Source: Engraulis encrasicolus (lineage: Eukaryota; Chordata; Actinopteri; Clupeiformes; Engraulidae). From it: a stretch of DNA of 64,000 bases. The stretch lies in assembly GCF_034702125.1 (NCBI RefSeq), contig NC_085866.1, forward strand, positions 10,297,842-10,361,841. Direction: 5' to 3'. This document shows, one piece after another, positions 17,281-62,155 of this stretch; position 1 is the first letter of the stretch; the number at the start of each line of letters is the position of its first letter. The position numbers and the translations under genes were made by a program. Below the pieces are notes generated by a model, which saw nothing but the letters and a program-made list of their open reading frames with translations, made no database searches and was not told the DNA's origin.

Positions 17281-19503
17281 TTACAAGAATACACTGAGGT
17301 CCTGTAATTCATTTAAACCATGGGGTTCTACTGTGTTCAGTTCGTGTATCCAGTAGGCCTCTCTCTGCAAAAGTTGCTTAATTATATTGCCCCCTCTTGG
17401 TTTTTGTTGTATGCGTTCTATACCTATGAATTTCAGGGAAGCGGCTGATCCATGATTTTTTTCTTTATAGTGCCTAGCTATAGAATAATCCATGTTTCCG
17501 TTTCGTATTGCTCCTTTGTGTTCAGCAATTCTTAGTTTTAAATTACGCTTAGTTTGGCCAATGTACATCAATCCACATGGGCATTTTAACATGTATACCA
17601 CATGTGTCGAGAGGCAATTGATGAACTCTTTTATGGGATATTTCTTCCCAGAGTGGGGATGACCGAATGTTTTTGTGTCAAATGTATGTGAACAATGAGC
17701 ACATTTCCCACATCTGTAGTTTCCATGTATCCCTTTGGCCAGCCAAGTCTTTTTGGGGGTCTCCATGTAGGTAGAACTAACCACCATGTCTTTGATATTT
17801 CTCCCTCTTTTAAAACAGAAACGAGGTGGCAGTGATGATAGATGGTGTAGACTAGGGTCACATTTTAAGATTTGCCAGTGTTTTCTGATGATCCGCTGGA
17901 CCTGCTTTGATGCAGTTGAGTATTCAGAAACAAAAGTCACTCTGTTTTCAGTGTTTTTGGGTGTGGGGTTAAGTAATGATGCTCTGTCCCTCCTGTGGGC
18001 CTTTTCTGCAGCTTGATTAATTAGCGAGTCATCATACCCCCTTTCCCTAAAGCGTTGAGACATTTCATTAGCCTTAATTCCATAATCATTCTCATCACTA
18101 CATATCCTCCGTAATCTCACAAATTGTCCATATGGAATGTTTTGAATGGTATGATCAGGGTGGAAACTCGAAGCGTGCAAGATAGTATTTCTATCCGTCG
18201 TTTTTCTGTAAATAGAAGTTTCCAGTTTTTTGTCAGCATTTACAGCTATCAGCAGATCTAAAAAATGTATTTTTTCACTGTCATATTCCATGGTGAATTT
18301 CAAAGTTGGATATGTTCCATTTATATGTTCATTAAATTTAAATAAGTCATCTTCAGTACCTACAAACACCACTAGGATGTCATCAATAAATCTTTTGTAC
18401 AGTAAAATGTTGTCAAAAAAAGGATTGTTGTTAAAAATGTTTCTCTCTTCCCATAAACCCATGTACAAATTGGCATAATTAGGCGCAAAAGGGGAGCCCA
18501 TGCTTGTCCCTTGAGTTTGCAAGTAAAATTTGTTGTTAAACATGAAGTAATTTGATTTTAAAATAAACTCAGTTAGCTCCATCAACAATTCGACAGGGAG
18601 GGTATCTTTCTTAGGTGTCAAATAAAAGTTCAAAGCCTCAAGCCCCCCCACATGGGGGATGTTGGTATATAAGCTTTCCACGTCAAATGTTACTAAAAAA
18701 GTCTTATCCGGTACATAAATGTCACTTAAAAGTTTCAAAACATCAGTAGTGTCGGACACATACGATGGAAGGCATGTCACAATTTCCTTTAAGAAATGGT
18801 CAACATATTGGCTCAAATTTTCAGTAAGGGAGTCTTTACTAGCCACAATGGGTCTTCCTGGAGGATTGTCCAATCTTTTGTGTATTTTTGGTAACAGGTA
18901 GAAGACAGGTGTCACAGGATGTTCACTCTTTAGAAAGTCAAACTGACTCTTAGTGAGCCAGTTGTTTTCCAATGCATTATTTAGTATGGTGTCACGCTCA
19001 TTCATATATGTGTCCACAGGATTCTGTCCCAGCTGTTCATAGAAGTTAGGATCAGTTAACTGTCTCATAGCTTCAGCCACATAATCCTTTGTATTTTGTA
19101 AAACGATTCCGCCACCTTTGTCAGCAGATTTCAGAATGATGTCAGTATTTTCCTTTAGCTCATTTAAGGCTTTTCTTTCAGGTACAGTAATGTTGTATTT
19201 GGTCTTTTTATTTGCAACAGAAATGGTTTTGTCAATGTCTTTTTCAACTAGTTTGGCAAAGGTGGCCAGAGTGGCATTGGGGGCGCCAGGAGGCATGAAA
19301 GTGGACTTTTTCTTAAACTTATCAAAGACACATGGGCCAACACTACCGGTGGATTCTCCCATTGCTTTAGCATGGAAAAAGTGTTTTAAGTGTAACTGTC
19401 TGAAAAACTTGTATGAATCCACCTTCAATTTGAATGCATTTACTTTATTTGTAGGGACGAAAGACAGTCCGCGGCTCAGTGCCTTTACCTGCGGGGTTGT
19501 CAA
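17281..19503 (-). CDS. Penelope-like reverse transcriptase with GIY-YIG endonuclease (ORF2)
   Basis: This 740-residue protein reverse-transcribes the element RNA at a nick made by its own endonuclease domain. RT motif A is FDVESLYTNIP (about residue 271), motif B is GTSMGSPFAPNYANLYM (about 331) and motif C is FIDDILVVF with the catalytic Asp pair (about 374). A Cys-rich linker (CGKCAHC) leads to the C-terminal GIY-YIG domain: VVYMLKCPCGLMYIGQT (about 638), with the catalytic Arg in LRIAEHKG. Length and order match canonical Penelope-like elements. The frame is open upstream of the Met at 19503, overlapping the end of ORF1, and the plus copy shows conserved residues there (NTVINISDYPL). The true N-terminus may therefore arise by frameshift or re-initiation. 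Confidence 0.95.
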   Translation of the reverse strand: MTTPQVKALSRGLSFVPTNKVNAFKLKVDSYKFFRQLHLKHFFHAKAMGESTGSVGPCVFDKFKKKSTFMPPGAPNATLATFAKLVEKDIDKTISVANKKTKYNITVPERKALNELKENTDIILKSADKGGGIVLQNTKDYVAEAMRQLTDPNFYEQLGQNPVDTYMNERDTILNNALENNWLTKSQFDFLKSEHPVTPVFYLLPKIHKRLDNPPGRPIVASKDSLTENLSQYVDHFLKEIVTCLPSYVSDTTDVLKLLSDIYVPDKTFLVTFDVESLYTNIPHVGGLEALNFYLTPKKDTLPVELLMELTEFILKSNYFMFNNKFYLQTQGTSMGSPFAPNYANLYMGLWEERNIFNNNPFFDNILLYKRFIDDILVVFVGTEDDLFKFNEHINGTYPTLKFTMEYDSEKIHFLDLLIAVNADKKLETSIYRKTTDRNTILHASSFHPDHTIQNIPYGQFVRLRRICSDENDYGIKANEMSQRFRERGYDDSLINQAAEKAHRRDRASLLNPTPKNTENRVTFVSEYSTASKQVQRIIRKHWQILKCDPSLHHLSSLPPRFCFKRGRNIKDMVVSSTYMETPKKTWLAKGIHGNYRCGKCAHCSHTFDTKTFGHPHSGKKYPIKEFINCLSTHVVYMLKCPCGLMYIGQTKRNLKLRIAEHKGAIRNGNMDYSIARHYKEKNHGSAASLKFIGIERIQQKPRGGNIIKQLLQREAYWIHELNTVEPHGLNELQDLSVFL

Positions 19504-19532
19504 AGGGTAGTCCGAGATGTTTATAACCGTGT

Positions 19533-20366
19533 TCAGGTCCGGTTCAGGCTCCTCGTGAACCGATTTGGATCCCGACTTCTGCCTTTTGCCCCTCCTCGTC
19601 CTTTTCTGTATGTGTGGCCTCCTCTCTGTCCTAAAAAAGGCCCATCGGTGGAAGAAGACGCACTGCTGCTGCCTTGGTCGCTTGTCTCCGCCTCGCTGGT
19701 CAGGAGCAGGTGTCGCTCTTTCTGTCTCTGTTCTCCTCTGCGATGTCCACCGCGCTGTCCACCGCGCTGTCCACTGCGCTGGCCTCTCGTCTGTGGTTTC
19801 TGTTGTCTGCGCTTATCCCATTTGTACACCGATCCTCTTCTGTAGTCCACGGCATCTCTTTCATATTTCTCTATTTTGAACGCTTTCAGCTCATCTTCAA
19901 ATTTAGCCAATCCCTCTTTTATGGCTTCCTCCAATTTGGCGACCTGTGTTGTGTCTGGAGTGTTGATTTCGGTTTTTAATTCTTGTATCTCCGTCATCAC
20001 TTTTTCTGCGTCTTTCTTAGTTTGTTCTATGATCAGCAAAGTCAAGTCTAATGAGCATTTGTTAAGGATTCTTTCCCACTTATTCATAAACTCGGTGTCA
20101 CCCTTGCCGAGTGCTGGCTTTTTGTATATGCGTAACCCCCTCGGTATTTGCTTTTTACGCCAATATTCGGAAAGCGCAATGCCATGCCATTTTAGGCGAA
20201 TGTTCTTCTCCTCTAAATAAATCAGTTGGCTTTTCTGATCTTCATGATAGAAATGTGCATTGTCTCTCTGATGTTCTCCAAACAACGATTGTTGTGAGAT
20301 TATACTTTGCGCTTCAGCGTCATCGAAGGAGAAGCACACAGTTTGGTTCAGGTGCTCATTAGTCAT
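19533..20366 (-). CDS. Penelope-like element ORF1, coiled-coil/RG-rich protein
   Basis: The protein has 277 residues. The first ~100 are mixed charged. About residues 95-165 are Lys/Glu-rich with heptad character (AEKVMTEIQELKTEI), consistent with a coiled coil. The C-terminal ~100 are Arg/Gly/Gln-rich with GQRGGQRGGHRRG repeats, consistent with RNA binding. It precedes ORF2 in another frame. A role in RNA packaging is inferred from composition and position. I recognise no enzymatic motif. Confidence 0.75.
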   Translation of the reverse strand: MTNEHLNQTVCFSFDDAEAQSIISQQSLFGEHQRDNAHFYHEDQKSQLIYLEEKNIRLKWHGIALSEYWRKKQIPRGLRIYKKPALGKGDTEFMNKWERILNKCSLDLTLLIIEQTKKDAEKVMTEIQELKTEINTPDTTQVAKLEEAIKEGLAKFEDELKAFKIEKYERDAVDYRRGSVYKWDKRRQQKPQTRGQRSGQRGGQRGGHRRGEQRQKERHLLLTSEAETSDQGSSSASSSTDGPFLGQRGGHTYRKGRGGAKGRSRDPNRFTRSLNRT

Positions 20367-20433: not shown

Positions 20434-20853
20434 CCTGTGCACAACCACTTGTCCAGGTGCTGGTGATGTGCAGTAAGAGTAATCCAAGTAAATGAAGGAT
20501 GAATCACCGCACACTGGTATCTTTGCTGGTAGTTTATTTGGTGAACAACGCGTTTCGCTACTGCTTCATCAGGTTCACTCTGACATTACGCATGTCACCC
20601 AAAGGTGATAAGGGTGATTACCTGGTCACATGACCTCACCCACATTCAACTACTCCACCCATTTAAGTGCTAGACAACACCCAATACTGGTTTAGGTATG
20701 TATATTATCACATCCTACCATTTAAATTACTATACAATTCTCATGCATTTTACCAGATAAATATGCTCACATCCCTGATATGTGTATCGATAATCATATC
20801 CACATAGAGTTCATACAATACATATCACTCCTCAGATGCAGGTTCGGGCCATG
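20434..20853 (-). repeat. Penelope repeat end (pLTR-like), inverted relative to the plus copy
   Basis: This segment is the reverse complement of about 23582-24003. It forms the 5' end of the minus-strand element and directly abuts the 5'-truncated plus copy at about 20860, giving the inverted-head arrangement typical of Penelope-like insertions. Confidence 0.85.
20541..20578 (-). ncRNA. Hammerhead-ribozyme-like motif, minus copy
   Basis: This is the same 38-nt motif as at 23842-23879, on the minus strand. Stem I arms are GTGAAC and GTTCAC, with cores CTGATGA and GAAAC. Confidence 0.65.
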
Positions 20854-20999
20854 CCATGCTGCTCCTGACCAGCGAGGCGGAGACAAGCGACCAAGGCAGC
20901 AGCAGTGCGTCTTCTTCCACCGATGGGCCTTTTTTAGGACAGAGAGGAGGCCACACATACAGAAAAGGACGAGGAGGGGCAAAAGGCAGAAGTCGGGAT

Positions 21000-23288
21000 C
21001 CAAATCGGTTCACGAGGAGCCTGAACCGGACCTGAACACGGTTATAAACATCTCGGACTACCCTTTGACAACCCCGCAGGTAAAGGCACTGAGCCGCGGA
21101 CTGTCTTTCGTCCCTACAAATAAAGTAAATGCATTCAAATTGAAGGTGGATTCATACAAGTTTTTCAGACAGTTACACTTAAAACACTTTTTCCATGCTA
21201 AAGCAATGGGAGAATCCACCGGTAGTGTTGGCCCATGTGTCTTTGATAAGTTTAAGAAAAAGTCCACTTTCATGCCTCCTGGCGCCCCCAATGCCACTTT
21301 GGCCACCTTTGCCAAACTAGTTGAAAAAGACATTGACAAAACCATTTCTGTTGCAAATAAAAAGACCAAATACAACATTACTGTACCTGAAAGAAAAGCC
21401 TTAAATGAGCTAAAGGAAAATACTGACATCATTCTGAAATCTGCTGACAAAGGTGGCGGAATCGTTTTACAAAATACAAAGGATTATGTGGCTGAAGCTA
21501 TGAGACAGTTAACTGATCCTAACTTCTATGAACAGCTGGGACAGAATCCTGTGGACACATATATGAATGAGCGTGACACCATACTAAATAATGCATTGGA
21601 AAACAACTGGCTCACTAAGAGTCAGTTTGACTTTCTAAAGAGTGAACATCCTGTGACACCTGTCTTCTACCTGTTACCAAAAATACACAAAAGATTGGAC
21701 AATCCTCCAGGAAGACCCATTGTGGCTAGTAAAGACTCCCTTACTGAAAATTTGAGCCAATATGTTGACCATTTCTTAAAGGAAATTGTGACATGCCTTC
21801 CATCGTATGTGTCCGACACTACTGATGTTTTGAAACTTTTAAGTGACATTTATGTACCGGATAAGACTTTTTTAGTAACATTTGACGTGGAAAGCTTATA
21901 TACCAACATCCCCCATGTGGGGGGGCTTGAGGCTTTGAACTTTTATTTGACACCTAAGAAAGATACCCTCCCTGTCGAATTGTTGATGGAGCTAACTGAG
22001 TTTATTTTAAAATCAAATTACTTCATGTTTAACAACAAATTTTACTTGCAAACTCAAGGGACAAGCATGGGCTCCCCTTTTGCGCCTAATTATGCCAATT
22101 TGTACATGGGTTTATGGGAAGAGAGAAAACATTTTTAACAACAATCCTTTTTTTGACAACATTTTACTGTACAAAAGATTTATTGATGACATCCTAGTGG
22201 TGTTTGTAGGTACTGAAGATGACTTATTTAAATTTAATGAACATATAAATGGAACATATCCAACTTTGAAATTCACCATGGAATATGACAGTGAAAAAAT
22301 ACATTTTTTAGATCTGCTGATAGCTGTAAATGCTGACAAAAAACTGGAAACTTCTATTTACAGAAAAACGACGGATAGAAATACTATCTTGCACGCTTCG
22401 AGTTTCCACCCTGATCATACCATTCAAAACATTCCATATGGACAATTTGTGAGATTACGGAGGATATGTAGTGATGAGAATGATTATGGAATTAAGGCTA
22501 ATGAAATGTCTCAACGCTTTAGGGAAAGGGGGTATGATGACTCGCTAATTAATCAAGCTGCAGAAAAGGCCCACAGGAGGGACAGAGCATCATTACTTAA
22601 CCCCACACCCAAAAACACTGAAAACAGAGTGACTTTTGTTTCTGAATACTCAACTGCATCAAAGCAGGTCCAGCGGATCATCAGAAAACACTGGCAAATC
22701 TTAAAATGTGACCCTAGTCTACACCATCTATCATCACTGCCACCTCGTTTCTGTTTTAAAAGAGGGAGAAATATCAAAGACATGGTGGTTAGTTCTACCT
22801 ACATGGAGACCCCCAAAAAGACTTGGCTGGCCAAAGGGATACATGGAAACTACAGATGTGGGAAATGTGCTCATTGTTCACATACATTTGACACAAAAAC
22901 ATTCGGTCATCCCCACTCTGGGAAGAAATATCCCATAAAAGAGTTCATCAATTGCCTCTCGACACATGTGGTATACATGTTAAAATGCCCATGTGGATTG
23001 ATGTACATTGGCCAAACTAAGCGTAATTTAAAACTAAGAATTGCTGAACACAAAGGAGCAATACGAAACGGAAACATGGATTATTCTATAGCTAGGCACT
23101 ATAAAGAAAAAAATCATGGATCAGCCGCTTCCCTGAAATTCATAGGTATAGAACGCATACAACAAAAACCAAGAGGGGGCAATATAATTAAGCAACTTTT
23201 GCAGAGAGAGGCCTACTGGATACACGAACTGAACACAGTAGAACCCCATGGTTTAAATGAATTACAGGACCTCAGTGTATTCTTGTAA
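21000..23288 (+). pseudogene. Frameshifted Penelope ORF2 (plus copy)
   Basis: The ORF2 frame runs open to a stop at 22136-22138. It continues in another frame from about 22130 to 23288. Against the minus copy, the run GAGAGAAAC has become GAGAGAAAAC near 22125-22131. The break falls between RT motif B and motif C, separating the catalytic Asp pair and the GIY-YIG domain from the N-terminal half. Otherwise the protein is almost residue-identical to ORF2 of the minus copy. Confidence 0.9.
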
Positions 23289-29598: not shown

Positions 29599-31218
<1,620 letters not shown>

Positions 31219-32307
31219 TATATACAGCTCCAGGCCTTTTTATTAGAATACCATGAAAAAGTTGATTTATTTCCATAATTCCATCAATAATGTTAAACTG
31301 TCATGGATTGTAGATTCATGGCCCAGTTTTTTAACTATTCCAATCATTATTTTTTTTCTTTTTATATATGTTGGCCTTCCAGCTCAAAAAACCCATGAAT
31401 TGGGGAATTTGCATTATTAGAATATTGTTATAAAATCACATTTTTCTTCATCAAAATTCGGGTCACATTAAATCAGTTGAAATTTGGTACTTTCTACATA
31501 ACATGCAATGGTCAATACTTGGTTAGGACATTCTCTGTCTTCATAATGGCCATGATGCGTTTAACATTGAAGTCAATGGCAAAAACAGTGCATGGGAGTT
31601 ATGGAAGCCCAGATATCCTTGATGCTTTGCTGTCAGCTGTTCTTGTTTGTTGACCTGGTGCCCCACACTTCCCTCTTCAATATACCCGAAGATTTCCATG
31701 CCACGTTTTGGTGTTAACTCACCAGTTTAATTCTAAATAACCAGAAATGAAACCCCATTGAAAATGAATGGGGTTTAATTTCTGTTGAGTTAGAATTAAA
31801 CTGGTGAGTTAACACCAAAACGTGGCATGGAAATCTTCGGGTATATTGAAGAGGGAAGTGTGGGGCACCAGGTCAACAAACAAGAACAGCTGACAGCAAA
31901 GCATCAAGGATATCTGGGCTTCCATAACTCCCATGCACTGTTTTTGCCATTGACTTCAATGTTAAACGCATCATGGTCATTATGAAGACAGAGAATGTCC
32001 TAACCAAGTATTGACCATTGCATGTTATGTAGAAAGTACCAAATTTCAACTGATTTAATGTGACCCGAATTTTGATGAAGAAAAATGTGATTTTATAACA
32101 ATATTCTAATAATGCGAATTCCCCAATTCATGGGTTTTTTGAGCTGGAACGCCAACGTATATAAAAAGAAAAAAAATAATGATTGGAATAGTTAAAAAAC
32201 TGGGCCATGAATCTACAATCCATGACAGTTTAACATTATTGATGGAATTATGGAAATAAATCAACTTTTTCATGGTATTCTAATAAAAAGGCCTGGAGCT
32301 GTATATA
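31219..32307. mobile_element. 1.09-kb palindromic (foldback) element
   Basis: Two arms of about 535 bp are inverted copies of each other with few mismatches. They start TATATACAGCTCCAGGCC and meet near 31760 in AAACCCCATT...AATGGGGTTT. TA at either end suggests a TA target. No protein is encoded. Its left end shares the TA with the right end of the Tc1 element, so the two are adjacent insertions in the same LINE. Confidence 0.85.
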
Positions 32308-32832
32308 CTGTATAAAAATAATTCAGCTGTCAAGTCAGCTGTGCAAAATTAAGTGTGTAGATTGCTTTTGGATAAAAACTGTCTTTTAGCCTGTTTGTTT
32401 TTGTACCCAGAGCCCTGTAACGCCTGCCTGATGGCAGCAGCTCAAACAGTTTATGTCCAGTATGGTAGGGGTCTCTGATGATTTGCTTGGCTTTCTTTGG
32501 ACAGCGACAGGAGAACAACTCCTCTAAAGAGGGCAGGGGACAGCTGGTGATCTTCTGAGCTGTGCTGACCACTCTCTGAAGAGCTCTTCTGTCCGCTGCT
32601 GTGCAGCTGGAATACCACACACATATACAGTATGTTAGGATGCTCTCTATGGAGCTCCGGTAGAAGGCCACCAGTAGACTTTGGGGTAGATGGTTAGCCC
32701 GTAAGACCCTAAGGAAGTACAGTCTCTGTTGTGCCTTCTTGATGGTGGCAGTGGTGTTGGTGTTCCAAGTAAGGTCGTCCCTTTGATGCACGCCCAGGAA
32801 GCGGGAATCAGAGACCCTCTCCACACAGGCCC
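32308..32832 (-). pseudogene. LINE reverse transcriptase C-terminus (segment 2)
   Basis: The frame 32848-32330 encodes the end of an L2/CR1-like non-LTR protein: KKAQQRLYFLRVLRANHLPQ, YRSSIESILTYCICVWY, then LFELLPSGRRYRALGTKTNR and a short C-terminus. The upstream half of the same protein is at 38525-38750, separated by the BEL/Pao insertion. It is broken and not functional. Confidence 0.85.
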
Positions 32833-33629
32833 TATTCTGTCCCGGCAATACTGGAGTATTCTTGACAGATAGCGAACAAAGAATTAAGACTCGAAGCGTG
32901 TTTCCAGTTTGTGAAGTTTAGTGAAGTCTTGCTGAATCTTAACAATTTTGTAAAACTGAAACAGAATCAAACATATAGGGTACATTTAGGAAATGAATGA
33001 ATACAATCCACAGGATAAAATCTGTTTTCCTTTTACAGGTACTAAGGTAAGTATTTTCTTTATAGGTCAGGTCAGGAAAGTAGGCACTGATTGTCACAGG
33101 CTATGATAAAGATAGGGAAGCCCAAGTTAAATCAGCTAATCAGGCGAACTTTAACATTCTATTCAAGAAGACTAAAACACAGATAATTTAACAGGTAAGT
33201 ATGTAAAATTATAGTAGGAATGTTTACATGTGAAATACAATGTATAAAATACGGCAAACAAGGCTTAACAAAGGTTAAGAGGCTGGACAATTTAGCTAAG
33301 CACCATAGCTAATGATCGGCGATTAGCACAATTCACACCTTTTAAATGGCGATCTCAGTAGAAACGAAATGTGGCATTTTTACCATTACTTTCAATGTTA
33401 CAATAACATTTAAAACGTATTGCCAAGGTTTCTAGAAGAAACTTACTGATAGTTCCAGTCTTTGGATTGAAACAGTTGAATCAAGCGAGGTAAGCATTTG
33501 CACAGCAACAGGAAGGTTGGACAGGAAGTACGGTTTGTAAACAATAGGAAATAAGAAATGCTGGATGCAGTACCAAACATTAACACAAGGGGGAACCTTA
33601 ACCCACCCAATAACTGACAGGTCAGCACA
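32833..33629 (-). repeat. BEL/Pao 3' LTR
   Basis: A 797-bp repeat equals 37723-38519. The only difference I saw is one base near 33575 versus 38465. The 5-bp duplication GGCCC is at 32828-32832 and 38520-38524. In minus orientation it starts TGTGCTGACC. A purine tract (AAGCGGGGAG) lies immediately upstream of it. Confidence 0.95.
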
Positions 33630-33738
33630 CTCCCCGCTTGGTATACAGTACTTGTATACCACTATTAACTCTTTCTTAAATGGCATTAGTAAATGGGTGT
33701 AATGTGCTCCTAAATTAGCTCTTGGCTTAGAGTCTTAA

Positions 33739-33850
33739 TTATGGCCTTACAAGCTTTGCTTGCCTGTCCTTTATCAAAACAATGTCACCTTCCTGAAGGC
33801 TGGGTTTCTCTGAGGTCCACCTCCCACACCGCCGAAGTGCGACCAGGCAC
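33739..33850 (-). pseudogene. BEL/Pao integrase C-terminal remnant
   Basis: In the frame that ends at 33739, the last residues read EKPSLQEGDIVLIKDRQAKL. This resembles the GDxVLIKD block near the end of BEL/Pao integrases. It lies in a different frame from the gag ORF. The call rests on this short motif and its position next to the 3' LTR. Confidence 0.55.
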
Positions 33851-36800
33851 CCCGCGGAGCAGCAACAGGAGCCGGCCGGTGACAGTGCGGCGCAGGAGCT
33901 GGAGGACGAGCCGGCCGATGACACCACAGCGCAGGAGCAGGAGCTGGCTGGTGACCCCGTGGAGCTGGAGGGAGACACCACGGCGCAGGAGCAGGAGCTA
34001 GCTGGTGACTCCCTGGAGCTGGAGCAGGCTGGAGACACCAGGGCGCAGGAGCAGAGGATGGCTGGTGACCCCGTGGAGCTGGAGCAGCCTGGAGACACCT
34101 TGCCGCAGGAGCAGGAGCTGGCTGATGACCCCGTGGAGCTGGAGCAGGCTGGAGACACCAGGGCGCAGGAGCAGAGGATGGCTGGTGACTCCCTGGAGCT
34201 GGAGCAGGCTGGAGACACCATGGCGCAGGAACAGGAGCTGGCTGGTGACCCCGTGGAGCTGGAGCAGGCTGGAGACACCATGGCGCAGGAACAGGAGCTG
34301 GCTGATGACCCCGTGGAGCTGGAGCAGGCTGGAGACACCAGGGCGCAGGGGCAGAGGATGGCTGGTGACTCCGTGGAGCTGGAGCAGGCTGGAGACACAG
34401 TGGCGCAGGAGCAGAAGATGGCTGGTAACCCCGTTGAGCTGGAGCAGGCTGGAGGTATCTTGCCACAGGAACAGGAGCTGGCTGATGACCCCGTGGAGCT
34501 GGAGCAGGCTGGAGACACCAGGGCGCAGGAGCAGAGGATGGCTGGTGACCCCGTGGAGCTGGAGCAGGCTGGAAACACCATGGCGCAGGAACAGGAGCTG
34601 GCTGGTGACCCCGTGGAGCTGGAGCAGGCTGGAGACACCATGGCGCAGGAACAGGAGCTGGCTGATGACCCCGTGGAGCTGGAGCTGGCTGATGACCTCG
34701 TGGAGCTGGAGCAGGCTGGAGACACCAGGGCGCAGGGGCAGAGGATGGCTGGTGACTCCGTGGAGCTGGAGCAGGCTGGAGACACAGTGGCGCAGGAGCA
34801 GAAGATGGCTGGTAACCCCGTGGAGCTGGAGCAGGCTGGAGACACCAGGGCGCAGGAGCAGAGGATGGCTGGTGACCCCGTGGAGCTGGAACAGGCTGGA
34901 GGTATCTTGCCACAGGAACAGGAGCTGGCTGATGACCCCGTGGAGCTGGAGCAGGCTGGAGACACCAGGGCGCAGGAGCAGAGGATGGCTGGTGACCCCG
35001 TGGAGCTGGAGCAGGCTGGAGACACCAGGGCGCAGGAACAGGAGCTGGCTGATGACCTCGTGGAGCTGGAGCAGGCTGGGGATTGCTTGGAGCAGGGGCA
35101 GGAGCTGTCTGCGTGTTGCTGGAACTAGAGCTGCTCCTCCCAGACGACGTGCTACAGCGCTTGTGTGCCTTCACCCTGCCGTGGATGATGTCAGTGCATG
35201 GCTTCAGGAAGGAAGGGTGTGCATTATGAAGGACATGGGTCTTGTAAGCATTGACTTCCTCAGTCTTATGAGCGCCACCCAGACACAACTCCCCTACTAT
35301 GACCCAGCCAAGATCAAGGCGCTGAGCATAAGGCAAGTTGTGTGGCCCATTACACAGCTCGCGTACCTTGTGCACGCTCAAGATATCTCGACCTAGTAGC
35401 AGAAGAATGGGTGCCGTGTTGTCAAGTGGAGGGATCTTGTCAGCCACTGGTCTGAGGTGAGGGAAGTATTGGGCGCACTCAGGTGTGGGGATCTCTGACC
35501 GGTCGCCAGGTAGGTATTCACACTCCAGCAACGTGGGTAATGTGACTTTGGTCTTCCCATCGAGAGATTCCATGATGATGTTAGTCGCTTTCCGTCCAGC
35601 AGTCTCCACTCTGCCCGAGCATGTTTTTAGCGTGTAAGGGGATGCCTTGCTGTTAATGCCCAACAGACTGAAGAACTCTGATTTCACTAAGGATCGATTG
35701 CTTTGGTCATCGAGTACAGCGTATACTTTGTGAGAAATGCTTGGATTATCAGCCTGTGAAACTTTGACCAGACAGATCTTGGAACAGGATCTAGGCTGGG
35801 GCGCGTCGCCACATATCTCAGTGCATTTGGAACTGACAACAGGGGGTGCTGTAACTCCACTCTCCCCGCTTTGCTCCCCACCATGCTCCCCACTCTGGTC
35901 ATTCCCTGGTGAGTGTTCAGCCTGTCCATAAGGTGACCACGGCGCTGGACCAGGATGCATAGCTGAGATGTGCATGTCGCTGTCACACTCTGTGCATTGC
36001 AGTGTGGTTTTGCAGTCTTTGGCAATATGCTTAGTGCTTGCACAACATCTGAAGCAGATTGAGTTCTCCTTTAGGTAGGCTTTTCTCTCATCCAGGTGCT
36101 TTAGTCGGAAGCCACGGCATTTTGTTAGCGGGTGCGGTTTGTGATGTATAGGGCATTCTTTGTCTGGTTCTGCCTTCAAAGACATGCCGTCCTGAGACGC
36201 CCCACCTGCGGCTGCGACGTCAGTCTTCTTCACTATTACTGCAGGTTTGTGGATGTGCTTTTGGTCTCTCTCACCTTTGGGTTGACTGGAGGTAGAGGAA
36301 AGGCTGAACGCGAAACTGGGATCATTGCGAGTCTTGGCCTGGGAACATACAAATTCAACAAAGTAGCTGAATGGCGGGAAAGGCACGTGATATTGCTCCT
36401 TGTATCTGGATCCCTGTGTCATCCATCGTTCTCGTAGTGAGAAGGGAAGCTTTTCAACGATAGGATTCACCCCTCTAGCTGTATCGAGATACATGAGTCC
36501 AGGTAGGAACCCCTCTGCCTTTGCACCTTGTAGCTCTTTCAACAAGTCGCCTAACTCTCTCAGCTTGTGTGTGTCGTTGTTGGAGATAACAGGAAAGGCA
36601 TCCAGTCTTTTCATTAAGGCGTCTTCAATCACCTCTGGGCTTCCATAAATTTCCTCCAAACGCTCCCATACCATCCACACACCACGCCTGGGATTATTTA
36701 CATGCACCGCCCTAATCCTCATGGCCTGAGCTGACGACTGGGGCCCCAACCATTTGATCAGTAGGTTGAGCTCTTCCTGCTCAGATAGGTTTAGCTCCTT

Positions 36801-37679
36801 TGTCGCAGCAATGAAAGAGGCCTTCCATGCCCAGTAATTCTCTGGGCTGTCGTCAAAGGCAAGGAGCCCTGAGCTCACCATCTCTCTTCTCATGAGATAC
36901 TGGGCTAAGACATGGGTTTGTGGGTTTTGAGGTGAGCATTTGTTACCCTGGTTGGGATGTAAGGCTGGGGGGTTAGGTTCTGTGTCTTTCCTTTTAATGT
37001 CTGGAGGAACAGGTGAATTTTCCTGCTTTGGAATAAATGTCTTTGGAGCAGAATGAGCAGCATGGCGAACAGTAGTTGTGCCTCTGAGTTCATTTTCCTT
37101 TACGAAAGATTCGTATAGTGAATCTTGGTCTTTGTGGCTGGGGGGTCGAAAGGTCACTGGTGCATGCTGAGCAATTAAGTGCTGTTGGCTAGGGGCTGAT
37201 GGCGATCGTGGTGGATGGGCATCGAATGGCTGAGTTTCGACATAGTCTTCTGTGCGTGTCATTGGATCATAAAGAGCTAGATCCTGTAACTCAACAAGAT
37301 CGTTGCTTTGTCTTTGTTCGAGCTCTGCTGCTGCTTCTTCATAGACAGCTGCCTCTGTTGATGCTGCAGCTGCTTCTTTCTCTTGCTCTAACACATGAAG
37401 ACGTGCATCGATTTCAGCCCTTTCTCTCATCATCGCTGCCTCCTTTTCAGCCCTTTCTCTTATCATTGCTGCCTCCTTCTCTGCAAATGATACCTTAGTT
37501 TTTGCTGCTTCAGCCTTAGCCCTGGCTCTTGTTGCAGCGATGCTGGATGATGTCCTGGTTGATGATCTGGAGGATTTGTGTGAAGTTGAACCCGAGGCAT
37601 GAGATCTTGTCTCCAACTGAGACTGACGTTCCTCTTGACCCAGTTGGCTCATCTTGTATGCTTCTGCTGTGCTGTTCAC
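33774..37679 (-). CDS. BEL/Pao gag-protease ORF extended by a proline-rich repeat tail
   Basis: The frame is 1301 codons. Residues 1-130 are charged and probably coiled coil (AAMIRERAEKEAAMMRERAE). About 270-460 form the Pao-type gag core (YWAWKASFIAATKELNLSEQ, then RLEEIYGSPEVI). A CPIHHKPHPLTKC segment and a zinc knuckle (CFRCCASTKHIAKDC, CX2CX5HX4C) lie near 515-560. A protease-like block (VLDDQSNRSL, then ILLLGRDIL) lies at 650-770. From about 850 to the end it is a 20-residue repeat (QPAPAPRGHQPAPVPAPWCL type) encoded by the minisatellite. The host frame for pol has been replaced. The start at 37679 follows the 5' LTR by about 45 bp. Gag assembles particles. The tail is novel sequence and its role is unknown. 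Confidence 0.8.
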   Translation of the reverse strand: MNSTAEAYKMSQLGQEERQSQLETRSHASGSTSHKSSRSSTRTSSSIAATRARAKAEAAKTKVSFAEKEAAMIRERAEKEAAMMRERAEIDARLHVLEQEKEAAAASTEAAVYEEAAAELEQRQSNDLVELQDLALYDPMTRTEDYVETQPFDAHPPRSPSAPSQQHLIAQHAPVTFRPPSHKDQDSLYESFVKENELRGTTTVRHAAHSAPKTFIPKQENSPVPPDIKRKDTEPNPPALHPNQGNKCSPQNPQTHVLAQYLMRREMVSSGLLAFDDSPENYWAWKASFIAATKELNLSEQEELNLLIKWLGPQSSAQAMRIRAVHVNNPRRGVWMVWERLEEIYGSPEVIEDALMKRLDAFPVISNNDTHKLRELGDLLKELQGAKAEGFLPGLMYLDTARGVNPIVEKLPFSLRERWMTQGSRYKEQYHVPFPPFSYFVEFVCSQAKTRNDPSFAFSLSSTSSQPKGERDQKHIHKPAVIVKKTDVAAAGGASQDGMSLKAEPDKECPIHHKPHPLTKCRGFRLKHLDERKAYLKENSICFRCCASTKHIAKDCKTTLQCTECDSDMHISAMHPGPAPWSPYGQAEHSPGNDQSGEHGGEQSGESGVTAPPVVSSKCTEICGDAPQPRSCSKICLVKVSQADNPSISHKVYAVLDDQSNRSLVKSEFFSLLGINSKASPYTLKTCSGRVETAGRKATNIIMESLDGKTKVTLPTLLECEYLPGDRSEIPTPECAQYFPHLRPVADKIPPLDNTAPILLLLGRDILSVHKVRELCNGPHNLPYAQRLDLGWVIVGELCLGGAHKTEEVNAYKTHVLHNAHPSFLKPCTDIIHGRVKAHKRCSTSSGRSSSSSSNTQTAPAPAPSNPQPAPAPRGHQPAPVPAPWCLQPAPAPRGHQPSSAPAPWCLQPAPAPRGHQPAPVPVARYLQPVPAPRGHQPSSAPAPWCLQPAPAPRGYQPSSAPAPLCLQPAPAPRSHQPSSAPAPWCLQPAPAPRGHQPAPAPRGHQPAPVPAPWCLQPAPAPRGHQPAPVPAPWCFQPAPAPRGHQPSSAPAPWCLQPAPAPRGHQPAPVPVARYLQPAPAQRGYQPSSAPAPLCLQPAPAPRSHQPSSAPAPWCLQPAPAPRGHQPAPVPAPWCLQPAPAPRGHQPAPVPAPWCLQPAPAPGSHQPSSAPAPWCLQPAPAPRGHQPAPAPAARCLQAAPAPRGHQPSSAPAPWCLQPAPAPGSHQLAPAPAPWCLPPAPRGHQPAPAPALWCHRPARPPAPAPHCHRPAPVAAPRGAWSHFGGVGGGPQRNPAFRKVTLF
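33885..35110. repeat. 60-bp minisatellite, about 20 units, inside the BEL/Pao element
   Basis: The unit is like GAGCTGGAGCAGGCTGGAGA followed by CACCAGGGCGCAGGAGCAGA and GGATGGCTGGTGACCCCGTG. Register is exact for 12 units from 33961, then shifts after a short extra piece at about 34681. A six-unit block (34141-34500) recurs with changes at 34501-34930, a higher-order repeat. Because 60 is a multiple of three and stops are absent, frames of 389 and 463 codons are open on the plus strand, and 428 plus the gag frame on the minus strand. Confidence 0.95.
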
Positions 37680-37722
37680 TGTTGTTCAACTGCTTATCCT
37701 TTTAGGGTGGTTATCATTTTAC

Positions 37723-38519
37723 TATTCTGTCCCGGCAATACTGGAGTATTCTTGACAGATAGCGAACAAAGAATTAAGACTCGAAGCGTGTTTCCAGTTT
37801 GTGAAGTTTAGTGAAGTCTTGCTGAATCTTAACAATTTTGTAAAACTGAAACAGAATCAAACATATAGGGTACATTTAGGAAATGAATGAATACAATCCA
37901 CAGGATAAAATCTGTTTTCCTTTTACAGGTACTAAGGTAAGTATTTTCTTTATAGGTCAGGTCAGGAAAGTAGGCACTGATTGTCACAGGCTATGATAAA
38001 GATAGGGAAGCCCAAGTTAAATCAGCTAATCAGGCGAACTTTAACATTCTATTCAAGAAGACTAAAACACAGATAATTTAACAGGTAAGTATGTAAAATT
38101 ATAGTAGGAATGTTTACATGTGAAATACAATGTATAAAATACGGCAAACAAGGCTTAACAAAGGTTAAGAGGCTGGACAATTTAGCTAAGCACCATAGCT
38201 AATGATCGGCGATTAGCACAATTCACACCTTTTAAATGGCGATCTCAGTAGAAACGAAATGTGGCATTTTTACCATTACTTTCAATGTTACAATAACATT
38301 TAAAACGTATTGCCAAGGTTTCTAGAAGAAACTTACTGATAGTTCCAGTCTTTGGATTGAAACAGTTGAATCAAGCGAGGTAAGCATTTGCACAGCAACA
38401 GGAAGGTTGGACAGGAAGTACGGTTTGTAAACAATAGGAAATAAGAAATGCTGGATGCAGTACCTAACATTAACACAAGGGGGAACCTTAACCCACCCAA
38501 TAACTGACAGGTCAGCACA
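37723..38519 (-). repeat. BEL/Pao 5' LTR
   Basis: A 797-bp repeat, partner of 32833-33629. In minus orientation it ends GGGACAGAATA and is followed by GTAAAATGATAACC, the place of a primer-binding site, though I could not assign a tRNA. Confidence 0.95.
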
Positions 38520-38524
38520 GGCCC

Positions 38525-38750
38525 CATCGATGACCAGCGGTTGAATGTTAGCCTTTGTCCTCCTGTAGTCCACTATCAACTCCTTTGTTTTTGTGATGTT
38601 TAGGAACAGGTTGTTCTCCTTGCACCAGACCGATAGACGCTGCACCTCTTCCCGGTATGCAGTTTCATCTCCCTTGGAGATGAGACCTACGATGGTGGTG
38701 TCATCAGCAAACTTGATGATACTATTGCTGGAGTGAGAGGGGGTGCAGTT
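38525..38750 (-). pseudogene. LINE reverse transcriptase fragment (segment 1)
   Basis: The minus strand encodes IIKFADDTTIVGLISKGDET, with the RT motif C Asp pair, then EEVQRLSVWCKENNLFLNIT and KTKELIVDYRRTK. The next residues (VIDGACVERVSD in the uninterrupted protein order) lie across the BEL/Pao insertion at 32800. The 5' part of the LINE is missing, consistent with usual 5' truncation. L2/CR1-like, family not certain. Confidence 0.85.
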
Positions 38751-39392
38751 GTAGGGGTGAGTTGAAAATCTAAGGAGTAGAAATAAAAGGATTCATCAGG
38801 ACATTAGGCCTTAACCTCTTCAGTATTATGAACCCAAACACTGTCAAGTATTGCTAGACATCAGGGCTGATTGACACCAGAAATACGGTGTTGTATGCAT
38901 GGGGATAGTCACTACGTACTGTGCTTGCTGACTTCATTTCAGTCCCAATTTTACTTTAATGTTCATTCCATGCAGGTTATAAAATGTGCATTTCCACAAT
39001 CCCGTATACTGTACAAGAAAGTTGAATATCTGCACTACTCCAGTCCAGCAAGTGACATTTACCTGTCATTTTACGGTATGTCACAGAAGTGAGCACACCC
39101 CTCACATTTCTGCAGATTTGTAAGTGTATCTTTTCCTGGGACAACATTTTTTTTAATCACTTTGACAGTAGCCAGCATACAACTTATATAGCAACTTCAA
39201 TTTATTGTTCATTCAAAATAATTTTTCCAAAGGAGTTGGGGTTGTACTGTATATCCAGCCGCTAACTTGCTTCTTGGATGTGCACGTCACTCTACAAGAA
39301 ATGTGCATGATCTCTGAATAAATAATGAATACATTCATGTGAACTACTGGAATAGAAACCAATGAAATTTGAGTTTGAAAACCCTGCTGTAC

Positions 39393-41605: not shown

Positions 41606-42256
41606 CTGGAAGCGATGCACAACAGAAAGAGATTAATCGTATTACTATCCACATTTTAGAAGCAAAGAATTGTTGTCTTGGTTTTATACTTACTGTAGGG
41701 GTGAGTTGAAAATCTAAGGAGTAGAAATAAAAGGATTCATCAGGACATTAGGCCTTAACCTCTTCAGTATTATGAACCCAAACACTGTCAAGTATTGCTA
41801 GACATCAGGGCTGATTGACACCAGAAATACGGTGTTGTATGCATGGGGATAGTCACTACGTACTGTGCTTGCTGACTTCATTTCAGTCCCAATTTTACTT
41901 TAATGTTCATTCCATGCAGGTTATAAAATGTGCATTTCCACAATCCCGTATACTGTACAAGAAAGTTGAATATCTGCACTACTCCAGTCCAGCAAGTGAC
42001 ATTTACCTGTCATTTTACGGTATGTCACAGAAGTGAGCACACCCCTCACATTTCTGCAACTTCAATTTATTGTTCATTCAAAATAATTTTTCCAAAGGAG
42101 TTGGGGTTGTACTGTATATCCAGCCGCTAACTTGCTTCTTGGATGTGCACGTCACACCACAGCCCTCTACTAGAAATGTGCATGATCTCTGAATAAATTA
42201 ATGTGAACTACTGCAATAGAAACCAATAAAGTTTGAGTTTGAAAACCCTGCTGTAC

Positions 42257-44937: not shown

Positions 44938-45605
44938 GGTTATTCGGCGAAGGTTATGTTTTGACCGCTGTGTATTTATTTTCTGTGAATTTGTTTGTAC
45001 TTCGTATAACTCAGACAGAACTGAGCCGATTTTTATGAAATTTAGTGGGATGATTGGTCATGACCCAAGGAACAATCGATTACTTTTTGGGAGTGATTAG
45101 GTCAAAGGTCAAGGTCAGGGTCACGAAAAGGTCAAAAACGTAAATTGAGCCGATTTTTATGAAATTTAGTGGGATGATTGGTCATGACCCAAGGAACAAT
45201 CGATTACTTTTTGGGAGTGATTGGGTCAAAGGTCAAGGTCACAAAAAGGTCAAAAACGTAAATTGAGCCGATTTTTAAGAAATTTAGTGGGATGATTGGT
45301 CATGACCCAAGGAACAATCGATTACTTTTTGGGAGTGATTGGGTCAAAGGTCAAGGTCAAGGTCACGAAAAGGTCAAAAACGTTTTTCTTTGCCAAGCAC
45401 TATATGCCAGAACAACGTGTGCATGCTGAATTGAATAAGAGGTCAAGAATGGGCCAAAAATGTAATATTACGATATTCCGGTCCGATTTAAATGAAACTA
45501 ACACCAAAATTTGGAGAATGTTATGCCCCACACTCTGAAGATGGCCAGAAAAAAATAAGTGGCGTAGGCGAAGGTTTGCGCTCTACCGAGTGCCCGTTCT
45601 AGTTG
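44938..45605 (+). mobile_element. Helitron-like dispersed repeat, copy 1, with internal tandem units
   Basis: It starts near TTCGGCGAAGGTTATGTTTTG and ends GCTCTACCGAGTGCCCGTTCTAG followed by T. Within it a unit of about 118-124 bp (AATTTAGTGGGATGATTGGT, then CATGACCCAAGGAACAATCG) is repeated three times (45042-45385). A second copy in inverted orientation is at 61362-62155. The CTAG end before T with a GC-rich stretch upstream resembles Helitron 3' ends. It lies in unit 2 intron 2. Confidence 0.6.
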
Positions 45606-61361: not shown

Positions 61362-62155
61362 GGCACTCGGTAGAGCGCAAACCTTCGCCTACGCCACTTA
61401 TTTTATTCTGGCCATCTTCAGAGTGTGGGGCATAACATTCTCCAAATTTTGGTGTTAGTTTCATTTAAATGGGACCGGAATATCGTAATATTACATTTTT
61501 GGCCCAGTCTTGACCTCTTATTCAATTCAGCATGCACACGTTGTTCTGGCATATAGTGCTTGGCAATTTTTTTTTTTTTTTACCTTTTCGTGACCTTGAC
61601 CTTGACCATTGACCCAATCACTCCCAAAAAGTAATCGATTGTTCCTTGGGTCATGACCAATTATCCCAGTAAATTTCATAAAAATCGGCTCAATTTACGT
61701 TTTTTACCTTTTCGTGAGCTTGACCTTGACCTTTGACCCAATCACTCCCAAAAAGTAATCGATTGTTCCTTGGGTCATGACCAATCATCCCACTAAATGT
61801 CATAAAAATCGGCTCAATTTACGGTTTTGACCTTTTCGTGACCTTGACCTTTGACCCAATCACTCCCAAAAAGTAATGGAGTGTGCCTTGGGTCATGACC
61901 AATCATCCCACAAAATTTCATAAAAATCGGCTCAATTTACGTTTTTGACCTTTTCGTGACCTTGACCTTTGACCTTTGACCCAATCACTCCCAAAAACTA
62001 ATCGATTGTTCCTTGGGTCATGACCAATCATCCCTCATAAAAATTGGCTCAGTTTTGACTGAGTTATACGAAGTACAAACAAACAAACAGACAAACAGAC
62101 ATATTCACAAATAAATAAATACACGGCGGGCAAAACATAACCTTCTGGCGAAGGT
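61362..62155 (-). mobile_element. Helitron-like dispersed repeat, copy 2
   Basis: The minus strand starts TTCGCCAGAAGGTTATGTTT, holds about four units of the 118-124-bp repeat (GATTGGTCATGACCCAAGG) between about 61590 and 62045, and ends CGAGTGCCCATTCTAG before T. It is the inverted counterpart of 44938-45605. Confidence 0.6.

Follow-up and report, generated by a model that had tools for sequence, protein, structure and literature searches.

Elements with long terminal repeats (LTRs) and without coding capacity are known as the LARD/TRIM type. Plant TR-GAG elements, such as the Copia element AT5TE33540, possess LTRs and one gag open reading frame (ORF) and have no pol; they are thought to be mobilised by the proteins of other elements, and a related autonomous element exists (PMC8704663, in the sections available). 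The Ogre and Retand elements, which are plant Gypsy elements, contain family-specific internal tandem arrays, and there are non-autonomous members among the Retand elements; such arrays have been suggested to originate from illegitimate recombination or strand transfer between copies packaged together (PMC7004042 and PMC11963269, likewise in the sections available). In the open-licence PMC literature, as judged from titles and the beginnings of abstracts, no BEL/Pao element of a vertebrate was found to harbour a minisatellite internally, and the terms 'non-autonomous' and 'tandem repeat' are absent from the main text of a BEL/Pao survey (PMC3118150) and from a survey of pufferfish LTR elements (PMC11117352). 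Here we describe a BEL/Pao element in a 64,000-nucleotide stretch of the Engraulis encrasicolus genome (assembly GCF_034702125.1, contig NC_085866.1, positions 10,297,842 to 10,361,841 of the forward strand), the whole of which is referred to as the window. With a probability of about 0.9, this element is a young copy of a non-autonomous BEL/Pao family, designated family A, in which pol has been replaced by a cassette of ~1.3 kb and which is likely mobilised by pol-bearing relatives.

The element in the window

The initial annotation had delimited the internal ORF only; the full element is longer. Its parts and flanks, in the order of its own sense strand, are given here in window coordinates.

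32833-38519, minus strand: whole element, with two LTRs and an internal ORF, flanked by a 5-bp target-site duplication (TSD)
38520-38524: TSD copy GGCCC upstream of the element
37723-38519, minus strand: 5' LTR, 797 bp, sense sequence TGTGCTGACC...GACAGAATA, one mismatch in 797 against the other LTR
37690-37722, minus strand: leader adjoining the 5' LTR, candidate primer-binding region
35169-37679, minus strand: gag-like coding region, ~837 codons including a CCHC knuckle, its first ATG being at 37652
33855-35168, minus strand: captured cassette, ~1.3 kb, flanked by gag and the integrase remnant
33868-35080, minus strand: minisatellite array, 60-bp units of 27 + 33 bp, 66% GC
33692-33854, minus strand: remnant of the integrase C-terminus, interrupted by stops and frame breaks and lacking 58 bp
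33630-33639, minus strand: AAGCGGGGAG, purine-rich, next to the 3' LTR; candidate polypurine tract
32833-33629, minus strand: 3' LTR, 797 bp
32828-32832: TSD copy GGCCC downstream of the element
32330-32827, minus strand: ORF remnant of a long interspersed nuclear element (LINE) in the downstream flank; the upstream side of the LINE resumes at 38525

GGCCC stands on both sides of the element, and when the flanks are rejoined with one copy of it the LINE reading frame is uninterrupted again; the insertion is therefore genuine. The paired 797-bp LTRs and the 5-bp duplication fit a BEL/Pao element, and the single mismatch between the LTRs bears out the earlier description of near-identical repeats in a young element. 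The start of the leader, GTAAAAT, is identical across the family-A, family-B and pol-bearing copies compared (see below), and the purine stretch is also present in the pol-bearing copy compared. Inspection of the leader by eye found no match to a tRNA primer site.

A single ORF of 1301 residues (33774-37679, minus strand) carries the gag frame on through the repeats, as had been noted. Its residues 1 to ~837 match the gag of full-length vertebrate BEL/Pao polyproteins. Among the 120 proteins listed of 413 matched by the ORF, the best, P0001 (1904 residues), is 81% identical, every alignment ends at or before residue 872, which is the start of the array, and the named proteins come from fishes and frogs. 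P0001 carries the Pfam domains Peptidase_A17 (Pao retrotransposon peptidase) and DUF5641, with rve and RVT_1 only below their curated cut-offs, and on this match the window gag is of BEL/Pao type. None of these four domains was detected by Pfam in the window ORF; of the reverse transcriptase (RT), RNase H and integrase of a BEL element, a degraded integrase C-terminus alone is left. The initial annotation was thus accurate in describing an intact gag frame from which RT, RNase H and most of integrase are gone, and the element is a deletion derivative, not an autonomous BEL/Pao member.

For the region near 35145-35762, support for a retropepsin-like fold was weak. The simple pattern D-[DE]-Q-S-N-R occurs in 81 of the 120 retrieved proteins, and D..QSN and GRD are invariant across an alignment of 25 sequences. 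A predicted 206-residue model of this region has a mean predicted local distance difference test score (pLDDT) of 60.8; its best PDB matches were HIV-1 proteases, at E values of 0.01 or worse over ~67 columns, with none at E <= 0.001. A PDB sequence search was empty, and Pfam found no protease in the window ORF.

The integrase remnant bears on the age of the deletion. The frame neighbouring that of the ORF yields a scrap of DUF5641 at an E value of 0.068 only. In each of the 15 pairs of relatives P0001-P0006, conservation is higher at the integrase end than in gag; because this end is conserved in relatives, yet the window LTRs are almost identical, the decay of the remnant is older than the last jump. 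Most of the array is likewise older than that jump, because its units differ on average (11% mean pairwise difference among 17 units), although some pairs are identical and could be recent. It follows that the element was already pol-less when it last moved, unless its LTRs were later made alike by conversion.

Families A and B, their gag and their arrays

The host assembly (1.433 Gb) was searched, and all locus counts are to be read as 'at least'. A query of window positions 33700-35200 returned 45 matches, from which 20 stretches were fetched and mapped for LTR, gag, array and 3' parts. Eight matches belong to family A, 25 to a second family, B, and five to a cluster on C17, of which three were read, as locus L029; six are short matches to the integrase end. 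The last, at C12:39379727 (L033), is a GCAGGA hexamer repeat and unrelated.

A 101-bp query across the gag/cassette junction matched seven places and no other, on five contigs: the window, C6 (L009), C17 (L010), a tandem pair on C2 (L011/L012), C1015 (L013) and C10:45.85M (L014). The left junction is identical at base level in all seven. Measured between this edge and an anchor point within the integrase remnant, the six complete A cassettes span 1344, 1557, 1137, 1209, 1203 and 911 bp as assembled. The LTR pairs differ at 1 of 797 positions in L009, as in the window, and at 2 of 803 in L010, and the three copies tested for TSDs each have their own (GGCCC in the window, ATCAA in L009 and CCATG/CCATT, matching at four of five bases, in L010). 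Gag is open in these three copies, and in L014 up to an assembly gap; it is broken by a stop at codon 301 in C2a, lacks its 5' part in C2b, and carries a 5-bp indel and inserted sequence in L013. At the C2 locus (C2:33490001-33509000), an incomplete LTR lies between the two A internal parts and is shared by them; identity to the window is 98% in gag but 85% in the stretch preceding the 3' LTR, which suggests a mosaic.

The earlier proposal of a non-autonomous family that amplifies gag plus minisatellite is upheld by the shared junction at seven places and the distinct TSDs where tested. A single copy in the genome, or full-length copies exposing the minisatellite as an assembly artefact, had been named as the outcomes that would speak against it; the junction recurs, and pol-bearing copies do exist, but the array is found elsewhere without them at several lengths. 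Tandem arrays are hard to assemble and L014 runs into Ns, but a single broken copy, or an artefact of expanded or collapsed repeats, is scarcely credible given one junction at seven places on five contigs, with differing array lengths and distinct TSDs. That the copies are segmental duplications of one element rather than transpositions is very improbable: the C2 pair, with its shared incomplete LTR, indicates that duplication or unequal exchange happens, and the comparison of flanks reached as far as the TSDs, but exact TSDs that differ from each other flank the window element and L009, L010 has a near one, and the family-B copies L019, L020 and L025 have exact ones of their own.

Thirteen loci of family B were examined (C9, as L015/L016, and L017-L028). 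Their longer LTR matches are 66-71% identical to the window LTR, and their interior runs from the gag start through a 190-bp middle piece and the array to the integrase end, complete in most loci and partial in some (L021, L026-L028); most of gag is absent and the cassette is kept. The LTR pairs differ at 0 of 790 positions in both L017 and L019, 1 of 791 in L020 and 6 of 790 in L025, and, with gaps, at 1 of 833 plus one gap in L022 and 14 of 794 plus two gaps in C9. Partial pairs agree at 98.8% in L018, 99.3% in L023 and 97.2% in L024, and no pair was reported for L021, L026, L027 or L028. Besides the three exact TSDs, duplications appear on a slight shift of the boundary in L017 and L022 (5 bp) and L018 (4 bp), and C9 has one of 6 bp; none was found at L023 or L024. 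The array-bearing structure is thus older and wider than the family first proposed, since family B has it too.

Both edges of the cassette are present in 10 of the 13 B loci (all but L021, L027 and L028). Between A and B the left edge is identical at 49 of 62 nt (79%), the right edges align, and the integrase ends carry overlapping deletions, of 58 bp in A and ~70 bp in B, in a stretch that is kept in a pol-bearing copy; on the side facing gag, the left junction is not the same in the two families. A single gain of the cassette before A and B diverged is probable, with B later losing most of its gag, an order that is preferred because it takes fewer steps. That A and B took the same kind of cassette independently, or that A regained a full gag by recombination with a pol-bearing element after a B-like ancestor, is unlikely but deserves consideration: the point of gag at which the left edge attaches is not the same in the two families, recombination with pol-bearing elements does occur (L014, below), and in L029 similar repeats are linked to gag fragments from a different BEL lineage. 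The two cassette edges and the overlapping integrase deletion common to A and B, together with the smaller number of steps, favour a single gain. L029 itself (C17:45873501-45878500) consists of repeated ~1.9-kb blocks with P0105-like BEL gag fragments and similar 60-bp repeats, and may be a third array-bearing lineage; it had been considered as a host gene, which was rejected on its match to those gag fragments, and a Pfam scan of it was empty.

Selection on gag was assessed with simple tests under one substitution model. Among the window, L009 and L010, 9 of 15 variable codons are silent, where a silent fraction of 0.29 was expected (P 0.013). The window and C2a differ by 18 silent and 21 replacement changes (n=39; P 0.020), and the window and L013 by 81 and 64, respectively, giving a ratio of replacement to silent rates (dN/dS) of 0.21; the remaining A pairs without L014 range from 0.08 to 0.43, the extremes resting on few changes. 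L014 was initially a candidate for this comparison but turned out to be a hybrid, so its dN/dS was not used for family A. In the 157-codon leader of family B (11 of the 13 loci), the corresponding ratio of proportions (pN/pS) is 0.99 when pooled and 0.88 over distinct variants (16 silent and 44 replacement changes), single B pairs varying widely on few changes. Pairs of the window with B gave 0.40-0.42 over the same segments, which fits a constraint lost part-way. The gag of family A is thus under purifying selection and looks functional, whereas the gag remnant of family B looks neutral.

The minisatellite gives a different picture. As first reported, ~1.2 kb of 60-bp repeats lie between the gag region and the integrase scrap. 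Over 33900-35100 the three minus frames hold 0, 0 and 1 stops and the three plus frames 1, 29 and 0, so that stops are absent from three of the six frames and occur once each in two others. Openness in several frames is weak evidence of coding, because the repeat unit is stop-poor by composition, and what the initial annotation had seen in it is mostly compositional.

It is improbable that the cassette is a selected coding module, in which gag is translated through the array as a gag-repeat fusion that the element needs. In its favour, the gag/leader frame has no stop in any of the 16 complete cassettes (6 A and 10 B; 0.9-2.35 kb), whereas the other two sense frames hold 11 and 12 stops in A and 108 and 18 in B, and cassette length is a multiple of 3 in 13 of the 16 (the exceptions being L013, L020 and L023). 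However, the frame in which the homologous array is read differs between A and B, L020 shifts frame within its array, and the B remnant upstream of the array looks neutral. At the level of units, no significant surplus of silent changes or deficit of nonsense changes was seen in the six frames tested for A or the three sense frames tested for B; the smallest P was 0.08, outside the gag/leader frame. Since units are multiples of 3 and stop-poor and the copies are related, openness may simply be inherited. Under a first-order Markov null, the probability of a stop-free frame was 0.057 for the window, 0.010 for L019 and 0/300 for L023; openness is suggestive only, because this null ignores both that one open unit stays open when repeated and that the copies are kin. 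It is doubtful that selection acts on openness rather than on the peptide sequence, whether because an open frame spares the mRNA from decay or because a gag fusion gains a disordered tail whose sequence does not matter. The array is best read as filler or a passenger rather than a selected protein.

As to the origin of the repeat, ORF residues 800-1301 and the plus-strand frame gave no match to a host gene among ~8000 scored candidates each, a weak negative given the limits of composition and length. Neither one scan of viral contigs nor plasmids yielded a relative. Pfam hits to PilJ (E 1e-8, above its cut-off) and GntR on the plus frame were discounted as artefacts of the repeat, purely on judgement.

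Pol-bearing relatives and a hybrid copy

A 210-residue RT piece of P0001 was searched against the assembly, and 150 of 729 candidates were scored; all but four of these are stop-free in the matched stretch. Six loci match the piece at 94-95%, five of them within open frames of 1758-1970 codons, and these five coincide with five of the six short integrase-end matches of the cassette-region search. The integrase C-terminus is intact in the three of these five that were read at their 3' ends, and two of the five were read at gag.

Exchange between such elements and family A is recorded at L014. Its gag is 95-100% identical to a pol-bearing copy up to nt ~1500 and 97-100% identical to the family-A copy L013 thereafter, its 5' LTR is 95-97% identical to pol-bearing LTRs, and the crossover lies within gap-free sequence. 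L014 is therefore a hybrid, with LTR and 5' gag of the pol-bearing type and 3' gag and array of the A type. High-frequency recombination between members of an LTR family has been described (PMC5668417, in the part available), and a copy such as L014 is what template switching between two RNAs packaged together would yield.

We reasoned from these sequences that family A retains what its RNA would need in cis (LTRs, leader and purine tract) along with an intact gag-like ORF, RT, RNase H and integrase having given way to the minisatellite cassette. Its RNA would most likely be packaged alongside that of the pol-bearing relatives in the same genome, whose enzymes would carry out its reverse transcription and integration. 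Gain and loss of units alter the length of the array, for which template switching or slippage by RT would be the likeliest route.

Several observations weigh against this account. Family A is small, with two of its seven places forming the tandem pair. The LTRs of the pol-bearing copies are 65-84% similar to those of A, higher values being confined to short stretches; an LTR search with 40 of 128 candidates scored turned up no pol-bearing element carrying an LTR of A type, and matches of at least 90% occurred only at A copies, at one further LTR on C16 and in short fragments. L014 ends in an assembly gap with its 3' end unseen, and recombination at the DNA level is another possible source of it. 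Selection tests within the youngest A copies rest on few changes; the window and L009 differ in gag by 4 silent and 5 replacement changes (dN/dS 0.36). Mobilisation of family A by the enzymes of another element nevertheless appears most likely, supported indirectly by the open pol-bearing relatives and the hybrid copy.

Other repeats and traces of mobile elements were observed in the window. Adjoining the LINE that took the element is a long inverted repeat (31215-32311), with two 545-bp arms that are 98% complementary and a 7-nt spacer. Two inverted, near-identical RT-bearing elements, at 17281-20366 (minus strand, with a 740-residue ORF) and 20780-23288 (plus strand, split into two overlapping ORFs), end in the motif CPCGLMYIGQ; we take these to be Penelope-like elements with GIY-YIG. 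An uninterrupted ORF of 350 residues at 29819-30871 (minus strand) presumably resembles a Tc1/mariner transposase. Direct repeats at 38750-39049 and 41694-41993, identical at 100% over 300 nt and 2.9 kb apart, are possibly the ends of another mobile element. Tandem arrays at 45022-45383 and 61576-62034 have periods of 118 and 124 bp, and their units seem to be mutual reverse complements.

Comparison with known systems

The closest vertebrate elements are the P0001-like BEL/Pao elements and their open copies in this genome. Gag, the leader start, the integrase end and the purine tract are homologous to those of family A; unlike family A, these elements keep RT and integrase, and the pieces read contain no array. 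Family B resembles the LARD/TRIM type in having LTRs and no functional coding part shown, and differs from it in keeping a gag remnant and a minisatellite. The contrast between A and B in the retention of gag and the selection on it offers a natural comparison of what a retrotransposon RNA needs in cis with what it can borrow, and the two families show a way in which a tandem repeat comes to be dispersed among chromosomes.

As TR-GAG elements are described in the source excerpted above, family A is like them in having LTRs and a single gag ORF, no pol, and related copies of autonomous type; its intact gag is the sole recognised coding part, and the same pol-less structure occurs in several insertions. 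It differs from these plant Copia elements in being an animal BEL/Pao family with a minisatellite cassette in place of pol. With Ogre and Retand it shares a tandem array inside a mobile LTR element, at a fixed position and specific to the family; in the accounts of those elements cited above, the array occupies the region between the coding part and the 3' LTR, whereas in family A it replaces pol, directly after gag. With a BEL/Pao gag and no pol, the window element does not belong to a Gypsy lineage whose array lies between pol and the 3' LTR. Family A works like TR-GAG and resembles Ogre and Retand, and is a member of neither plant lineage; it is the counterpart, in an animal and within BEL/Pao, of two kinds of plant element: those that have gag and lack pol, and those with an internal tandem array. 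Its pol-bearing relatives reside in the same genome, and the one hybrid copy is a record of exchange between it and them.

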